Below the pieces are notes generated by a model. It searched no databases. It was not told where the DNA came from and was given only the letters and a program-made list of their open reading frames with translations. Of a stretch of DNA of 32,137 nucleotides, positions 1,453 through 8,120 are shown piece by piece. Origin of the DNA: a virus; IMG/VR virus record IMGVR_UViG_3300029319_000263, positions 1 to 32,137 of that record, one strand, 5' to 3'. The translations under genes and the position numbers were made by a program. The stretch's first letter is position 1. Each line of letters begins with the position of its first letter.

Positions 1453-1614
1453 TTACCTACCTGGAAACAAAGCTTTTTCTAACGCATCAACTAATCTGTC
1501 ATCAACTGTATTGTCAGTTTTTTTAACCATAGCTCGTATTATATCTAATGCGAGTTTTTTTAATGCTTTTCCACGAAGGAACGCAAAAATGATAGGCTCA
1601 ATGATTTTTAGCAT
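1453..1614 (-). CDS. Small membrane-associated protein with TDNTVDD motif
   Basis: A 53-residue frame (ATG 1614, TAA 1453-1455). The N-terminus MLKIIEPIIFAFLRG is hydrophobic and could insert into or lie along the membrane; a basic segment, the polar motif KKTDNTVDDR and an amphipathic C-terminal helix follow. Short proteins combining a hydrophobic N-terminus with a TDN-x-VDD motif are, from memory, common in phages of marine cyanobacteria and other bacteria, usually near lysis or structural genes and of unknown role. Its stop codon directly abuts the stop of the convergent 21-aa peptide gene. No clear ribosome-binding site is seen. Confidence 0.6.
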   Translation of the reverse strand: MLKIIEPIIFAFLRGKALKKLALDIIRAMVKKTDNTVDDRLVDALEKALFPGR

Positions 1615-1667: not shown

Positions 1668-1704
1668 ATAACCTCTTCTGTTAGTGGTCAATAGGAGAGG
1701 TTAT
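1668..1704. repeat. Perfect 9-bp inverted repeat, possible hairpin
   Basis: ATAACCTCT (1668-1676) is the exact reverse complement of AGAGGTTAT (1696-1704), with a 19-nt loop. The right arm covers the stop codon of the minus-strand gene 1701-1931. It could form an RNA hairpin at the 3' end of that transcript, or be a protein-binding dyad. There is no U-tract, so it is not a classical intrinsic terminator. The 1615-1700 stretch otherwise shows no gene. Confidence 0.55.
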
Positions 1705-1931
1705 CTTCTTGGTTTAATCTCTGCAACAGCAAGTTCTACTTCTTTTAGTCGATGAAATACTTCTTTCATGTCATCATGCATATCATCTATTTTTGTAGTT
1801 AACAATTCTATTGCAGTTGTATTACGCACGAGATCATCTCTTGATTGTCTTCCTCTATAAGAAACAGATCCTACAGATACAAAACAAGCCGTCATCATTG
1901 CTCCCCCAACTGCTGCTATTACTTCAACCAC
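1701..1931 (-). CDS. One-helix membrane protein with coiled-coil tail (76 aa)
   Basis: GTG start at 1931 with GAGGA about 8 nt upstream. Residues 2-23 form a hydrophobic, small-residue-rich segment (EVIAAVGGAMMTACFVSVG) likely to span the membrane. SYRGRQSRDDLV follows, then a long heptad-patterned helix (about 35-72). Proteins of this design are common in cyanophage genomes and resemble small holin-associated or baseplate-hub-associated membrane proteins, but their role is not established. The divergent neighbour at 1975 also encodes a membrane protein, so the pair may share a regulatory region in the 43 nt between them. Confidence 0.65.
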   Translation of the reverse strand: MVEVIAAVGGAMMTACFVSVGSVSYRGRQSRDDLVRNTTAIELLTTKIDDMHDDMKEVFHRLKEVELAVAEIKPRR

Positions 1932-1974
1932 TTTACGAGTCCTCTATCTATGTCTATTATGACAGAAAAAGGTT

Positions 1975-2334
1975 ATGACAGAACAGAAAAAGAAAAATCC
2001 GTTCCAAAAATTAAAAGATGGATTAGATGATAAAGAGGAACAGTTAGCTATTATTAGTCTTTTTGTGCGATTAGGTGTAGTTGTTTGGAGTGGATTTATC
2101 GTGACACTTAACTACATAACTATCCCCGGATATAGTGGAGATCCAAAAGATATCACGTTCCCTGCTTCGCTTTTAACTGGAGCTTTGGCAACATTTGGTT
2201 TAGAGGGATCAAAGAAACGTAGTGAGAAAGACAGCAAAGTTGCGGAAAACGAAGGTATGGTGCAGACTATAAGGGTAATAACACCTATTAAAATAGAAGG
2301 TGCTGAAGTAATCGACCCTAAATCTAAAAAATGA
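1975..2334 (+). CDS. Small integral membrane protein (holin-like topology)
   Basis: 119 residues. A charged N-terminus (about 1-24, Lys/Glu-rich) precedes a hydrophobic helix (about 24-48, IISLFVRLGVVVWSGFIVTL). A YITIPG loop and a second weaker hydrophobic segment (FPASLLTGALATFGL, about 61-77) come next, then a polar tail. Two-helix proteins of this size with charged ends could be holins, but no diagnostic holin motif is present and no endolysin lies nearby. Similar proteins occur in cyanophages, from memory. It is the first gene of an overlapping plus-strand operon: its TGA overlaps the ATG of the next gene (ATGA), so all four genes probably share one transcript. Confidence 0.6.
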   Translation: MTEQKKKNPFQKLKDGLDDKEEQLAIISLFVRLGVVVWSGFIVTLNYITIPGYSGDPKDITFPASLLTGALATFGLEGSKKRSEKDSKVAENEGMVQTIRVITPIKIEGAEVIDPKSKK

Positions 2335-2852
2335 AAAAGCTACTTCCATTTATTTTTGCACTATCAGCAGCAACTCCAAGTTATGCCGAGATTACAGCTA
2401 AATATGTAACTTCTGCACAAATTTCTGTTGAAGCTCCAGCAGTTATCACTAATGCTGCACCATCGAGTTACAGCATAAGCGGAAACAATGTTACCACATC
2501 TACAGGAACAGGAGATTCCGTTGTTACTAATGGTATTGGAGGACTTAATTTAGGCAGCTTAAGCAATGGAGTCCCAGCTTTGGTAAATACAAATAAATCC
2601 GTTACAACGGCTGGATCTTCGTTTAGTTTTTCTGAGAGTTATCAAGCTGGAGATGTGACGCAATCTGCTATTACTCCTAGTTCTGGTATTGCAAGTCTTC
2701 CTGTTTTAGGAGGTCAAACTACAGTAATGTCGGGAGGTACTGCTGGAACTTTAGCCCTTACGAGTCTTAGTTCTGGAATCCATACCTGTACTGCTGGTGG
2801 AAGTGGTACTAGCTGTATTGGATCTACTACTGTCAGCATAGAAATTGACTAA
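2331..2852 (+). CDS. Exported Ser/Thr-rich protein with signal peptide
   Basis: 173 residues with a textbook Sec signal sequence: MKK, hydrophobic LLPFIFALSAATP, and cleavage likely after SYA (residue 19). The mature part is rich in Ser, Thr, Gly, Val and Ala with regular beta-strand spacing and only two cysteines (HTC and TSC) near the C-terminus, which could form a disulfide outside the cytoplasm. I see no enzymatic motif. Export signals are unusual on phage proteins other than lysis factors. The gene overlaps both neighbours (4 and 8 nt), so the three exported proteins are likely made together. A surface, adhesin-like or envelope-modifying role is inference; similar proteins have been called structural in cyanophages. 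Confidence 0.65.
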   Translation: MKKLLPFIFALSAATPSYAEITAKYVTSAQISVEAPAVITNAAPSSYSISGNNVTTSTGTGDSVVTNGIGGLNLGSLSNGVPALVNTNKSVTTAGSSFSFSESYQAGDVTQSAITPSSGIASLPVLGGQTTVMSGGTAGTLALTSLSSGIHTCTAGGSGTSCIGSTTVSIEID

Positions 2853-3282
2853 ATTTTGTTTACTGCTAATATTCTTATACCCGATCAAAACTCTTGCTAC
2901 ACCTGTAGTTCCCCAGTTTCGATCTGGGTCGAGTACGACCAGCTCGACTTCTGAATCAGTTATAAATGAAACAATCACAAGTCATCAATATCGTACAGGT
3001 TACACATTCTCAGTTTCGGGTCACAATATTGAAAGCACAGACATTGATGGATACATTGATCCGACTCAGACAACTCTTAATGAACAAACTGTTGGAGGAG
3101 TAAATTTTAGTTGGACTTCAATAGATGGCACAACAAATCCAAGATGGAAGGTAGCAGTTCCCGGAAGTTCCTTCAGCTTGGTCGAAAGCGTCATGGCACC
3201 AGGTTTGGACACAATAACAACAATAAACAGAACTATAACAACCTCAACCACTACAGAATCTACAAGTACGTTTGGGCAATAG
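2845..3282 (+). CDS. Exported beta-rich protein, TTG start (145 aa)
   Basis: The frame starts with TTG at 2845, overlapping the end of the previous gene (TTGACTAA). No ATG or GTG would leave the signal sequence intact, so TTG with translational coupling is the best choice. Residues 1-19 (MTKFCLLLIFLYPIKTLA) form a signal peptide; the mature part has SVSGHNIE, YIDPTQTT, VNFSWTS and PGSSFSLVES-x-MAPGLDT motifs and a Thr-rich end. This pattern (a YRTGY strand, a (F/W)-x-W-T block, then P-G-x-x-F-x-x-x-E and APGLDT-x-T-x-x-RT) is, from memory, shared with proteins labelled virion structural in T4-like cyanophages. Its function is unknown. Confidence 0.6.
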   Translation: MTKFCLLLIFLYPIKTLATPVVPQFRSGSSTTSSTSESVINETITSHQYRTGYTFSVSGHNIESTDIDGYIDPTQTTLNEQTVGGVNFSWTSIDGTTNPRWKVAVPGSSFSLVESVMAPGLDTITTINRTITTSTTTESTSTFGQ

Positions 3283-3287
3283 CAATA

Positions 3288-3863
3288 TTGCTAAGTCCGA
3301 TTAAAACCCTTGCAAACACTACTGTTGCTAGTCCTCAATCTCAAAGTACCGGGGTAGTTAATAACAATGCCACAATGATAACTCCATCTAGCCATCCACA
3401 ATTTAGGATGTCTCAAGGGATTGTATGTTCTTCTCCTACCCTCACGATCACACCTTATATGACAGACTCGTGGAGTTTTAACCGCCCTATCGAATATGTA
3501 ACTCGTACACCAATCTATGACGAAGATACAGGGGAGATAAAATATTATTCAGAAATACCTAGATTTGAAAAAGATAATTTTAATCTTAACTATGGAATTT
3601 CTGCACAAATAAGCATTCCATTAGGCAAAGCACCAAGTCTTTGTTTAGAAGCAACAGAAGTAAATATAGAAAATCAAAAACTTTTAACACAAAAGCTAAA
3701 AATGGAAATGGAATTATATCGTCTTAAAATTTGCGGAGAGCAAGTGCGTAGCGGAGTTCAGTTTGTTGGTAAGTATGCAGTTACTTGTGAGGGCATACAA
3801 GTCTCTATACCACCTAACCAAGTAGTGCCTCATACACACAAAATTGAGCTAAAAAAACAATAA
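3288..3863 (+). CDS. Exported protein with C-terminal coiled coil; start uncertain
   Basis: The frame is open from 3111 to TAA at 3863, but the first 170 nt overlap the preceding gene in another frame and encode an unlikely basic sequence. The recognisable signal sequence (KYVWAIAILLSPIKTLA) begins near 3261, yet no ATG, GTG or TTG lies just before it. The first standard start after the upstream stop is TTG at 3288, used here; initiation at ATC 3258 would give a full signal peptide. The mature part contains SQGIVCSSPTLTITPYMTDS, a tyrosine-rich strand region, SIPLGKAPSLC and a helical segment with two later cysteines (KIC, VTC). Similar proteins occur in cyanophages, from memory; the role is unknown. 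Confidence 0.6.
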   Translation: MLSPIKTLANTTVASPQSQSTGVVNNNATMITPSSHPQFRMSQGIVCSSPTLTITPYMTDSWSFNRPIEYVTRTPIYDEDTGEIKYYSEIPRFEKDNFNLNYGISAQISIPLGKAPSLCLEATEVNIENQKLLTQKLKMEMELYRLKICGEQVRSGVQFVGKYAVTCEGIQVSIPPNQVVPHTHKIELKKQ

Positions 3864-3889
3864 AATAGCTTATTTTTTCTTATTTTTAG
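3849..3889. terminator. AT-rich bidirectional terminator candidate at convergent junction
   Basis: CTAAAAA (3849-3855) pairs with TTTTTAG (3883-3889), and inner AATAA/TTATT pairs around a short loop extend an imperfect AT-rich hairpin flanked by A and T runs on both strands. It lies exactly where the plus-strand operon (ending 3863) meets the long minus-strand unit (ending 3870). The lack of G-C pairs makes it a weak candidate. Confidence 0.3.
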
Positions 3890-4502
3890 TTAATCTTGAA
3901 ACTGCTTGTTTAACTAATGGCCGTACAAGCTGAAGTACCAATGGAGCAGAAGCACCAACCAAAGCAAGGCTAAAGACCCCAACAAACTGAGGGGCAGATG
4001 GAATGAACTGCTCTTTCCATTCAACTCTTTCATACTCGGTTATGCATTCTCGTTTGTCCGATGATAAGCGATGCGATACTACTTTTTCAAGCTTTTGTGA
4101 ATTTCTGAAATCGCCCACTCGCTGGTCTTTAGAGCCTGGACACTCAGGCACTTGCATATCTTTTTCTTTTTTTTCTTCAGGGATTTTAGGTGTCTCCGTT
4201 TCAGGTATTTCTGGATCTCCTCCCTGTGGCAATGGTTCTTCAACTATCGTCATTTGATTAGGATTGTAAACAGGAGGAATAAAACTTGGAAATGAAAAAT
4301 CACAAATTGTGTATGTGCCGTTTGGATCGTCTAACAACAAATTATGATTTCCTGTATTTTTAATATCTCTATGTTGATAAGTACATCCTGGTGTATTGAT
4401 ATCTAGATACTGATTTACAACAGGAATATTAGGTGTATAAGGTTCTGGAATATATATCTCAGGTATATATATTTCTGCAATATTTATACTAGGTATCCCC
4501 AT
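3870..4502 (-). CDS. Proline-rich protein with C-terminal membrane helix (210 aa)
   Basis: I start at ATG 4502, which overlaps the stop of the upstream gene (TGATG). The N-terminal 40 residues contain repeated IYIPE/PYTP-type Ile-Pro-Glu motifs, likely an extended polyproline-like structure. The middle has a Glu/Pro/Lys spacer and a conserved-looking block CPGSKDQRVGDFRNSQ followed by ECITEYERVEWKEQ. The C-terminus has a hydrophobic segment (about 168-192) ending in a very basic tail (RLTKNKKK). It resembles, from memory, proteins of T4-like cyanophages that share the CP...G block, a C-x-T-x-YE block and a final hydrophobic helix. Function is unknown. It is the last gene of the minus-strand unit and faces the exported cassette. 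Confidence 0.6.
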   Translation of the reverse strand: MGIPSINIAEIYIPEIYIPEPYTPNIPVVNQYLDINTPGCTYQHRDIKNTGNHNLLLDDPNGTYTICDFSFPSFIPPVYNPNQMTIVEEPLPQGGDPEIPETETPKIPEEKKEKDMQVPECPGSKDQRVGDFRNSQKLEKVVSHRLSSDKRECITEYERVEWKEQFIPSAPQFVGVFSLALVGASAPLVLQLVRPLVKQAVSRLTKNKKK

Positions 4503-4663
4503 CAATCAAAAGCATCTCTTTTTTTTAATACTTCTACTTGTGAAAAACATTTAGGACAAGATAAATTAGTCATTACCGAAAACTCAGGATAAGTTGGCAT
4601 AGACTCATCAATATCTATATCCCCACTTGGCAATAATTCAGTATCACACCAATAGCAATTCAC
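4502..4663 (-). CDS. Small zinc-ribbon protein with two CxxC motifs (53 aa)
   Basis: Reading the minus strand from GTG 4663 to TGA 4502-4504 gives 53 residues beginning MNCYWCDTELLPSGD, with a second pair in MTNLSCPKCFSQVEV. Two CxxC pairs spaced by about 30 residues make a classic zinc ribbon. The start shares a base with the preceding TAG stop (TAGTG), and its own stop overlaps the next ATG (TGATG), so it is locked into the operon. Tiny proteins beginning MNC-x2-C-x-TELI with a later TNLSCP-x-C block are, from memory, widespread in cyanophages and of unknown role. The GTG start and small size would make it easy to miss. Confidence 0.7.
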   Translation of the reverse strand: MNCYWCDTELLPSGDIDIDESMPTYPEFSVMTNLSCPKCFSQVEVLKKRDAFD

Positions 4664-4902
4664 TAGATTCCAAGTTTTTTAGCTTCTGGAGGTAGTGGCA
4701 ATGATGGCCCTGTTAAATCAGGAACAACATTATCTAATGCTTTTGGCATAAGTCCTTGTACATTACCTAGAACTTCATTCATTATTTTTGTTTTAAACTG
4801 TTCGCTAGTTAGGTACTTATAACCAAAAAATGCTGAAACTAAAGTACTGACTATAAGTACAAATGAAGCTATACTCAAAATATTAGAGATTTTTTGAAAC
4901 AT
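4663..4902 (-). CDS. Small one-helix membrane protein (79 aa)
   Basis: 79 residues. MFQKISN is followed by a hydrophobic span (about 8-30, ILSIASFVLIVSTLVSAFFGY), then an amphipathic region (LTSEQFKTKIMNEVLG) and a Pro-rich end (LTGPSLPLPP). This suggests a single membrane helix with a soluble C-terminus. Similar proteins with a K-I-M-N-x-V-x-G-N-V motif occur in T4-like cyanophages, from memory, without assigned function. No ribosome-binding site is clear. It is followed by the zinc-ribbon gene with a one-base TAGTG overlap, so the two are probably translationally coupled. Confidence 0.65.
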   Translation of the reverse strand: MFQKISNILSIASFVLIVSTLVSAFFGYKYLTSEQFKTKIMNEVLGNVQGLMPKALDNVVPDLTGPSLPLPPEAKKLGI

Positions 4903-5195: not shown

Positions 5196-8120
5196 TTATG
5201 TATCGCCAAAGATGGCAATATTTACTTTATTTGGATTAACAGTAGTTAATCCAACATTACCAACATTTTGAGCTCCAGAAACCATAATTCTAAGTGCAGA
5301 AGTTGTATAAGTACTATATGTGTCAACATGAGCTATAACTCTACCTCCTGATCCATTTCTAAAAGCAAACCCCTGTACAGAGTAGTTTGTATTTGCCATG
5401 TTTCCATCAAAGTTAATAGTATATTGACCTGTTGAATGGTATGTAATGCTGCTTACTCCTACATCATCTGCAATAGTACTACTAGAAAAAACTACCCATT
5501 TTTTTGCTGCTGCTGGAGCAGATGAAACTTGTGAAGCAGTTATATAGCCAGCCCCATTTGTAAGTTGATTATTATTTGTTGGAATTGTAGGTCTATTTGA
5601 AAGTGAATTGTAGTTTCCGTCAAAAGTTGTAAAACCTCTACCATTTGTTATTTGATTATTGTTAGTAACATTAGTAGCACCAGCAGCAATACCATCAAGT
5701 TTTGCTCCATCTGCTGCTATATCTCTGCCATCTACTGTTCCTGATAGAACGACATTACCATTTCCTTGAATACGGAATACTTCACTACCATTACCAGTAA
5801 CTTGTAAAGCATAAGTAGCACTACTGCCAACCTCAATCACTTGTCCAAACTCTGTTGCAGAACCATTGTATTTATCTACTTTTAATCCCCAATCATTATT
5901 ATTAGTTGCTGTGACATATAAACTAGCGTCATTAGTTGCATTTGATGTTCCAGCATTTATAGACAATGCAGCATTAATAGTATCTGCTGTATCTGACCTA
6001 ACAAGACTTGCAATACTTATACCATCTAAGGTATCTGCATCTAACCCAGAACCAGAACCATCTACAGTTTTTAGAAGAGTTAATATTTCATTCGCTGTTT
6101 GGTCAGCGGTAGCACCATCTTCTACGTTTATCATTGACCTGACATTAGCAGGAGTTAAAGTCGTAGCATCTCCAGAACCACTAGCAATTCGACCAATTAT
6201 TCTATTTTGAGCAATATCTACAAGTTTATCTAAAGAAACAGCATTGTTAGTGATATTTGAAGTGTTAACAGAAGTTAAATAACCTGCACCGTTTGTAAGC
6301 TGATTATTATTAGTAACATTAGTAGCAGAAGCAGCAATTCCATTTAATTTTGACAACAAAGCATCAGTAAAAGCGTTTGTATTGCTATTTGATTCATAGG
6401 CAGTTTTAATTTCTGAGGCACTTTGGTCAGCAGTAGCTCCTGACTCAATACCATCAAGTTTCGATCCATCACTAGCTACGTCACGACCATCAACTGTACC
6501 TGATATTGTTATATTGCCAGTTATAACATTACTTCCAGTAGTAAAAGTTCCAGAGGCAGTAATATTTCCAGAAGAATCTATAGCAAACCTATCATTGCTG
6601 TTTGTAGCATCAATAATTTTAAAACTACCACTATTAACTTCAATTTTAAAATCATCATTAGCATTGCTGTCAGTTAAATTTATTGTCGGAGAAAGGCTAG
6701 TTATTGTTATGTCTCCCCCTGATAGTGAGAGATTTCCTGTTGCTGTTATATTTTGCGATCCAAATTGAGGAGAAATCTTTGACCCAGCTATCGCTGCACT
6801 TGCATCTATTTGAGCATTAACAAGACCACTACTATTTAATAATGTTTTTATGTCACTTGCTGTTTGGTCTGCGGTAGCACCTGATTCAATTCCATCAAGT
6901 TTTGAGCCATCAGTTGCCAAGTCTCTACCGTCTACTGTGCCTGATACTGTTATATTCCCTGTTACATCAATACCAGAACTACAATCTAAATTGTTAGCAA
7001 TTGTCGTTGTATTCTCAGCTATTGTGAGTTTTGTAGAACCATCTATTTTTCCCAGTATTTGTGTACTTGCTTTTTCGTCATCTTTATCTGCACTTAAAAC
7101 CAAATCTCCACCTGCACCACTTATTTCAGATTCGGGTGTTCCCGAAGCATCACTATCTGTAAATTTAATTGTTGGTGCAGCACTTTCTAAATCAAGTAAT
7201 ACAGAGGGGGAGTTGGTTCCTATGCCAACCCGATTGTTAGTAGAGTCAACGTGTAAAGTATTGGTGTCAATGGTCAGATCAGCAGTTCCAGTGATATTTC
7301 CTGTTACATCAATACCAGCATCAAAATCGTGATTTAATTTTGAAACAATTTTTGATGAATCAACAGTTAATCTATTTGCTCCAGCAGACGCATCTTTTAT
7401 AGCAAAAGCTCCAAGATCAACTTTTATTTGATAATTAGGACTACTATTTGAATCAGTAAACTGAATACTTGGTGCAGTTGACGTAATTGTTTGATTGCCC
7501 GAAGCAAAAGTTCCAGTTGTTATTATATTTTGATTTCCAAAACTAGGAGCAACTTTTAATCCACTTATGCTTGCACTTGCACTTATATCCTCATTGACAA
7601 TAGTTCCATTTGCTATTTTTTGTGTTGTAACAGCCCCATTAATAATTTTGTCTGTTGAGACAGTATTGTCACTTGGCTCTCCGATACCACCTGACTCTTG
7701 ATAGAGGATAAAATCAGGTGCAGCAGGGAGGTTGGTTGCAGTTTTTAGTCTTGAACCATCAACAATAAATCCTGTTATACCACTTGTTGAAGTTCCAGCG
7801 TTTGGTTTTTGTATAACACCTGAGACACTTACTAATAATGTGTTTGCAGCTACTGGAGTAACTGGACTCGTTGTTCCAGCAGATACGAGAGTAAAGTCAT
7901 TACCTGGATAGCTTGCTGCTCCATTATTTGCTGCATTTCTTAATTCTAAATATTTAAAGTCAGGGCCACCGCCACCACCTGATACTTTTGCTACTGAACC
8001 ATCATCTTTCTTAAAAAATAACTCTGCCGTATCAGTTCGTAGTACTGGTTCGCCAAGAACCATATCATTTGCTACTGGATCGCTTCCACTACCTCTTTTA
8101 ATTCTAATTGTGTTAGACAT
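5196..8120 (-). CDS. Large modular tail fibre protein (974 aa)
   Basis: The gene starts at ATG 8120 behind AGGGAGGT, one of the strongest ribosome-binding sites in the window. The first 50 residues (MSNTIRIKRGSGSDPVANDM and on) match the start of the 8146-9756 fibre and look like a virion-attachment anchor. A long beta-rich shaft follows with repeated units: TVDGRD-x-A-x-DG-x-KLDGI (three copies), GATADQ(T/S)A-x-x-I, NNNQLTNGAGY and TGNIT blocks. The last ~105 residues (from AAAKKWVVFSSST) form a tip domain related to the ends of 12467-13549 and 10633-10974. Such mosaic fibres bind the host surface. Strong sequence sharing with the 10974-12233 fibre suggests exchange between them. Confidence 0.85.
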   Translation of the reverse strand: MSNTIRIKRGSGSDPVANDMVLGEPVLRTDTAELFFKKDDGSVAKVSGGGGGPDFKYLELRNAANNGAASYPGNDFTLVSAGTTSPVTPVAANTLLVSVSGVIQKPNAGTSTSGITGFIVDGSRLKTATNLPAAPDFILYQESGGIGEPSDNTVSTDKIINGAVTTQKIANGTIVNEDISASASISGLKVAPSFGNQNIITTGTFASGNQTITSTAPSIQFTDSNSSPNYQIKVDLGAFAIKDASAGANRLTVDSSKIVSKLNHDFDAGIDVTGNITGTADLTIDTNTLHVDSTNNRVGIGTNSPSVLLDLESAAPTIKFTDSDASGTPESEISGAGGDLVLSADKDDEKASTQILGKIDGSTKLTIAENTTTIANNLDCSSGIDVTGNITVSGTVDGRDLATDGSKLDGIESGATADQTASDIKTLLNSSGLVNAQIDASAAIAGSKISPQFGSQNITATGNLSLSGGDITITSLSPTINLTDSNANDDFKIEVNSGSFKIIDATNSNDRFAIDSSGNITASGTFTTGSNVITGNITISGTVDGRDVASDGSKLDGIESGATADQSASEIKTAYESNSNTNAFTDALLSKLNGIAASATNVTNNNQLTNGAGYLTSVNTSNITNNAVSLDKLVDIAQNRIIGRIASGSGDATTLTPANVRSMINVEDGATADQTANEILTLLKTVDGSGSGLDADTLDGISIASLVRSDTADTINAALSINAGTSNATNDASLYVTATNNNDWGLKVDKYNGSATEFGQVIEVGSSATYALQVTGNGSEVFRIQGNGNVVLSGTVDGRDIAADGAKLDGIAAGATNVTNNNQITNGRGFTTFDGNYNSLSNRPTIPTNNNQLTNGAGYITASQVSSAPAAAKKWVVFSSSTIADDVGVSSITYHSTGQYTINFDGNMANTNYSVQGFAFRNGSGGRVIAHVDTYSTYTTSALRIMVSGAQNVGNVGLTTVNPNKVNIAIFGDT

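Follow-up and report, generated by a model that had tools for sequence, protein, structure and literature searches.

Four overlapping genes run against the virion operon of a lambda-like siphovirus, and their products appear to be directed to the cell envelope. What is this gene set for, and how far does it extend? The window analysed was an IMG/VR virus contig of 32,137 bases. Its virion genes (terminase, portal, capsid, tape measure, J and fibres) all lie on the minus strand and the four overlapping genes, g1 to g4, occupy positions 1975-3863 of the plus strand, as the initial annotation had described. The first gene, g1 (1975..2334), encodes a 119-aa DUF6450 protein with Lys-rich ends, a holin-like candidate. 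The proposal that it is a two-helix membrane protein is compatible with its one strong and one weak hydrophobic stretch, and the record of its P-SSP7 homologue shows two TM helices. The next gene, g2 (2331..2852), encodes a Ser/Thr-rich protein of 173 aa with a signal, MKKLLPFIFALSAATPSYA, that ends before E. It is followed by g3 (2845..3282), encoding a beta-rich DUF6322 protein of 145 aa, and by g4 (3144..3863, alternative start TTG 3111), encoding a protein of 239 aa. Signal sequences were judged by rule: a basic start had to be combined with a hydrophobic stretch and a site of A-x-A type. All three features were found in g2, g3 and g4, which bears out the claim of three exported proteins. 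A weak sigma-70-like promoter match, TTTACG-17-TATTAT, precedes g1 on the plus strand (1932..1960), and the number of such sites was near chance (15 found, 12.6 expected). Further upstream on the same strand, a 104-aa ORF (528-842) weakly matches families of T7-type RNA polymerase inhibitors (Pfam 0.0086, below the Pfam cut-off; phrog_1307 0.0038).

The absence of a recognised catalytic motif, also claimed at the outset, was upheld, as Pfam returned only DUF6450 for g1 (2.8e-24) and DUF6322 for g3 (4.7e-27) and weakly for g2, and gave nothing for g4. The PHROGs families matched were phrog_2714/721 by g1, phrog_564 (2.8e-41) and phrog_650 (7.5e-4) by g2, phrog_650 by g3 and phrog_848 (5.2e-65; PHROGs 848/1755) by g4, all with function unassigned there. 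Since g2 and g3 each weakly match the other's PHROG family, they appear to be distant paralogues. No literature naming DUF6450 or DUF6322 was found. Sequence searches with g3 and g4 gave no relatives of solved structure, and their AF2 models had no significant match in the PDB; the matches of a BFVD search were mostly further phage proteins for which no function is named. The g3 model (pLDDT 78, pTM 0.35) contains two strands of 23-24 residues. This long beta hairpin matched lysenin, aerolysin and iota-type stems at Z 3-4, with no Foldseek E below 0.001, and its strands weakly resembled phage tail parts (Andhra, P68). This middling likeness to both pore-forming hairpins and tail parts may be an effect of the long strands alone. 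The g4 model (pLDDT 65, pTM 0.32) combines a beta region with a helix of 40 residues.

The initial annotation had all four genes overlapping by 4-8 nt and placed the g4 start beside the g3 stop. The short overlaps stand for g1/g2 (1975-2334 and 2331-2852, 4 nt) and g2/g3 (2331-2852 and 2845-3282, 8 nt), but g4 almost certainly starts inside g3 in the -1 frame, at ATG 3144 or TTG 3111, an overlap of 139-172 nt. The stretch 3144..3282 would thus be dual-coding, with the g3 end in frame 0 and the g4 start in frame -1. This layout recurs widely: relative to g3, g4 uses the -1 frame in all but one of the distinct siphovirus-type and T4-like loci (232/233) and in 77/77 distinct T7-like loci. The -1 frame is open in 174/174 siphovirus-type and 58/58 T4-like loci, where about 3-4% would be expected by chance, and chance openness was rejected. 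A start near the g4 signal peptide was also rejected, because there is no ATG, GTG or TTG there in 206/232 siphovirus-type and T4-like loci. All 232 loci do have such a codon inside or near g3, in most cases -139 or -172/-178 relative to the g3 stop, and an upstream start is present in 76/77 T7-like loci, mostly at -112 or -67.

Because g3 contains many Thr codons, which seldom give rise to -1 stops, synonymous choice was tested directly in the last 45 codons of g3, where a T-ending codon before AA, AG or GA creates a -1 stop; expected counts were derived from codon usage. Counted over related loci and phages, which are not independent events, such codons made up 0/1041 in siphovirus-type loci (461 expected), 0/333 in T4-like loci (135 expected) and 10/472 in T7-like loci (151 expected), a pattern seen in three divergent groups. 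In the control, upstream g3 codons, the counts were 604/1379 (649 expected) in siphovirus-type and 167/369 (158 expected) in T4-like loci. Some T7-like loci have shorter open extensions, and these can use the -67 start. This avoidance of stop-making codon choices indicates that selection keeps the -1 frame open in the g3 end. Codons that form the starts are also favoured: CCG precedes the Trp codon TGG in 31/71 podoviruses compared to 53/565 Pro codons in g4, CCC precedes it in 0/71 compared to 66/565, and ACA is used in 31/31 T4-like loci compared to 292/831.

Could g4 instead be made as a g3-g4 fusion by -1 ribosomal frameshifting, with no internal start? The fixed -1 frame and the absence of a start near the signal are compatible with this. 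Against it, a canonical start lies upstream within g3 in nearly all loci and recurs at -139, -172/-178, -112 and -67; stops are plentiful just before these positions and gone after them, the start-forming codons are enriched, and a conserved slippery heptamer was not seen in the codon table. We consider frameshifting improbable and regard g4, with near certainty from these codon patterns, as a genuine overlapping gene that starts within g3 and has its first 30-50 codons there. We propose that the overlap keeps g3 and g4 together, and it may couple their synthesis.

Read from the internal start, g4 would begin with a basic N-terminal extension, followed by a signal segment, a beta region, the 40-residue helix, four conserved Cys and a C-terminal HxH. 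In the window the hydrophobic part of the signal, VWAIAILLSPIKTLA, is encoded at 3270..3314, and mature g4 probably begins from 3315. With a mean length of 32-48 residues, the extension is net basic (+1 to +12) in all loci scored; it is followed by the hydrophobic stretch and then the A-x-A-type site. A cleavage-type site was found in 174/174 siphovirus-type, 53/58 T4-like and 77/77 T7-like loci, and the four Cys and the HxH of the mature protein are invariant. Public annotations place the g4 start downstream of the signal peptide in P-SSP7 (L002 6701), P-RSP2 (L323 5034), S-RIP2 (L324 869) and NATL2A-133 (L325 5130). Judged by the conserved upstream starts, the podovirus g4 annotation is wrong and begins too late, which cuts off the signal peptide and hides the exported nature of the protein. 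The sole locus with g4 outside the -1 frame of g3 is that of MED4-184 (L001, about 5999-6010), which was initially annotated with an overlap of 11 nt. Its T run downstream of the g3 stop lacks one base compared with relatives such as L102, which makes an indel or a sequencing error the likely cause.

The gene set does not end at 3863, where the initial annotation had closed it. Two minus-strand genes that it missed, g5 (3870-4505) and g6 (4663-4902), also belong. The g5 product matches phrog_570 (7.7e-37) and is Pro-rich, with four Cys, a C-terminal TM segment and a basic tail; it has no signal peptide. The four Cys, present in most siphovirus and T4-like members, suggest an oxidised, periplasmic N-domain and hence a cytoplasmic basic tail, an orientation inferred from sequence. 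The g6 product is a 79-aa protein with one N-terminal TM segment and matches phrog_568 (1.3e-10), a family labelled 'plasmid stability', a label for which this small single-TM protein offers no visible support. Among 232 fetched loci, 114 have the order g2+ g3+ g4+ g5- g6- and another 45 have this order with g1+ in front; the remainder are mostly shorter versions on shorter contigs. The order of the g2-g6 block was thus kept in most of the fetched loci, and its recurrence is more than chance.

Profile searches of 18 genomes found g1, g3, g4 and g5 either all present (P-SSP7, P-RSP2, S-SSM5, MED4-184, P-SSM2, Syn9 and P-HM2) or all absent (S-PM2, Syn5, P60, P-SS2, S-CBS4, S-CBS2, S-CRM01, S-CREM2, S-SZBM1, Ma-LMM01 and Pf-WMP4). 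A single g1 match in S-CREM2 (5e-5) was left out because it contains two stops, and podovirus g5 was counted through phrog_9426, the Pro-rich gene with a C-terminal TM segment that lies before g1 in T7-like cyanophages. The siphovirus and T4-like g5 profiles match each other with prob 100. phrog_9426 matches the T4-like g5 profile over 65 columns, covering the TM segment and tail (prob 96.7), and the siphovirus profile more weakly (prob 55). This presence pattern indicates that g1 (DUF6450), g3 (DUF6322), g4 and g5 are a core inherited together, with g6 outside it. The module is common to three virion types, the contractile-, long- and short-tailed viruses of marine picocyanobacteria. The siphovirus MED4-184 has all module genes; in the T7-like phage P-SSP7 g1, g3 and g4 are adjacent, in P-RSP2 they face the g5 relative as they do in the window, and g1-g3-g4 was found in 92/95 podovirus loci. 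g2 occurs in siphoviruses and T4-like phages.

Homologues of g4 were found in 453 phage records, essentially all of cyanophages. Relatives in bacterial genome contigs were confined to single cells of Prochlorococcus and a small number of MAG or draft contigs. A host origin was considered and rejected, as the MAG and draft contigs look like phage contamination; homologues filed under Chloroflexota, Bacteroidetes, Nonlabens, Lewinella, Euryarchaeota, Formosa and Gammaproteobacteria (loci L314-L319 and L321) are probably of this kind. Beside the module, the window encodes a 53-aa protein of phrog_402/2738 (1453-1614, minus strand) that is present in 12/18 cyanophages. This protein adjoins the module in MED4-184 and P-SSP7 and also occurs in several phages that lack the module (Syn5 gp48, S-PM2).

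Part of this gene set has been reported before. Sullivan et al. 2010 (PMC3037559) described a 'hypothetical cluster' of T4-GC 218, 219, 234, 235 and 237 together with a 'plasmid stability' gene in T4-like cyanophages, and named no function. Of our genes, g1, g5, g4 and g2 correspond to GC 218, 234, 235 and 237, g3 is GC 236 and g6 is GC 414; in tblastn searches the window genes matched members from S-SSM5 and P-RSM4 that are labelled with these GC numbers in their records. GC 219 (phrog_605) occurred in only 49 fetched loci and lies outside the four-gene core. The description of the module as undescribed therefore needs qualifying, as five members and the 'plasmid stability' gene were known. 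The 2010 cluster was confined to T4-like phages and no nested start was named; the siphovirus and podovirus members, the all-or-none core of four genes, the nested g4 start, the T7-holin position and the late-promoter motif before g1 are new.

It was proposed in 2010 that the 'plasmid stability' protein mobilises the set as a cassette, whose cargo would then have a function unrelated to lysis. The position of the cluster does vary among T4-like genomes (PMC3037559). However, g6 is a single-TM protein in which Pfam finds no mobility domain, and it was not seen next to the podovirus core, so we consider this explanation very improbable. The plasmid stability gene is also carried by S-SCSM1.

Genomic context favours a lysis role. 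In T7-like cyanophages g1 occupies the T7 holin position, with the terminase genes. The order in NATL2A-133 is tail-fibre region, phrog_9426-type g5, g1, g3, g4, a small protein and the terminase small subunit; this block also follows the fibre in P-SSP7, and S-RIP2 has g3-g4 ahead of the terminase small subunit. In T4-like loci the motif CTAAATA precedes g1 in 17/33 cases, mostly at -27 to -30 nt. The same motif precedes gp19 and gp20 in S-SSM5, where the form ATAAATA precedes other structural genes, suggesting that g1 is probably expressed late in T4-like phages. In these phages g2-g3-g4 run in the direction opposite to g1, and a search upstream of them in T4-like loci gave no late motif.

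Kongari et al. 2018 (PMC6139136) listed 20 phages of Prochlorococcus and Synechococcus as spanin-less, among them P-SSP7, P-SSM2, P-HM2, Syn9 and S-SSM5. They gave a fragile outer membrane as one explanation and proposed a protein with a C-terminal TMD as a possible i-spanin. A Pfam and PHROG scan of the 42 mostly unassigned proteins of MED4-184 gave no recognised holin, endolysin or peptidoglycan hydrolase among the matches listed (25 of 77 PHROG families), and there is no endolysin in the module. No gene family of the module carries a lysis assignment. Dedicated literature on cyanophage lysis was found for freshwater phages only. Phages that lack the module (S-PM2, Syn5, P60, P-SS2 and S-CREM2) also lyse picocyanobacteria, so the module is not the only route.

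In T7 itself the order is fibre, two-TM holin (gp17.5), terminase small subunit and Rz-like pair (gp18.5/gp18.7). The module shares with it a putative two-TM protein between the tail fibre and the terminase small subunit, and an envelope protein pair in which one gene lies in the -1 frame of the other. It differs in having no holin or spanin family match in Pfam or PHROGs and in that g3 and g4 have cleavable-type signals and no lipobox; g4 merely starts within g3 and extends beyond it. Likewise, the Rz/Rz1 two-component spanins of lambda are envelope-directed products of genes that overlap in different frames beside a holin-like gene, whereas the module lacks an o-spanin lipoprotein signal and its carriers are formally listed as spanin-less (PMC6139136). 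Lipobox-like motifs were found in g4 in 0/174 siphovirus-type, 2/58 T4-like and 0/77 T7-like loci, in g3 in 0/289 and in g2 in 2/273. The inner-membrane partner of the Rz/Rz1 pair has a periplasmic coiled coil, to which g4 could be compared by its 40-residue helix but for its cleavage-type site, and g5 by its C-terminal TM segment in the orientation inferred above. Given the missing lipobox, g3, g4 and g5 are not classical spanins; they would act like them without belonging to the family. A class II holin is small, with two TM segments and both ends inside, to which g1 might be compared by its one strong and one weak hydrophobic stretch and Lys-rich ends. The module-less phage Syn5 has gp47 and gp48 at the T7-holin position between tail fibre and terminase; these are a one-TM coiled-coil-like protein and a 56-aa protein, not DUF6450, and the gp48 family adjoins the module in the window. 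Another lysis candidate, a 76-aa single-TM, coiled-coil-like protein (1701-1931, minus strand; phrog_26178), is also encoded in the window, and Syn5 gp47 resembles it in layout.

The T7-holin position, the late motif, the spanin-less carriers and the T7-like frame nesting together favour a lysis role, with g1 holin-like and g3, g4 and g5 in place of spanins, and from the sequence evidence we give this role about an even chance. We considered two other functions. The exported proteins could cover or modify the envelope of an infected cell and bar other phages, with g1 and g5 as membrane anchors. Exported, envelope-directed proteins common to competing phages of the same hosts would suit such superinfection exclusion or surface remodelling, as would the lack of a late motif before g2-g3-g4 in T4-like phages. 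The late-promoter motif before g1 and the location between fibre and terminase in T7-like phages speak against it and, to our knowledge, a four-gene core is large compared to known exclusion systems; we regard exclusion as unlikely.

Alternatively, g3 and g4 could attach to particles, either once exported or when the cell lyses, and serve as fibres, decorations or fibre chaperones. The module adjoins tail-fibre genes in the window and in podoviruses, and the weak likeness of the long beta strands to the Andhra and P68 tail parts would fit. Such proteins would carry Sec-type signals, yet these phages assemble in the cytoplasm; moreover, the module is common to three unrelated virion types and the T4-like set sits among replication genes. 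The listed phage records call the homologues hypothetical and assign them no virion function, and the virion proteomes of S-CREM2 and S-SZBM1 are uninformative because both phages lack the module. We therefore rate a virion or assembly role as rather improbable. The envelope or surface function originally suggested fits these results, and of the options it offered a lysis step is the best supported. Thus the module may, with roughly balanced chances, be a late envelope-breaking module of marine picocyanobacterial phages.

In the lysis mechanism that we propose, g1 would accumulate in the inner membrane and, in the manner of a class II holin, open it at a defined moment. g3 and g4, joined by g2 in siphoviruses and T4-like phages, would assemble in the periplasm. 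g5 would be anchored in the inner membrane through its C-terminal TM segment, with its disulphide-bearing Pro-rich domain outside, and would connect with the periplasmic g3/g4 assembly. After the wall has been weakened, g3, g4 and g5 would jointly disrupt the outer membrane, a step that is the task of spanins elsewhere and for which the carriers have no recognised gene. We tentatively suggest, at somewhat less than even confidence, that the three virion types share an undescribed lysis system that consists of a DUF6450 holin and a lipid-anchor-free, three-part outer-membrane breaker (g3, g4 and g5), one part of which has its start and signal coded in the -1 frame of another gene.

The module is a concrete candidate for the lysis of Prochlorococcus and Synechococcus, present in hundreds of cyanophage records. 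It also presents an unusual case in which the start and signal segment of a protein appear to be kept by selection inside the gene of another exported protein, across unrelated phages.
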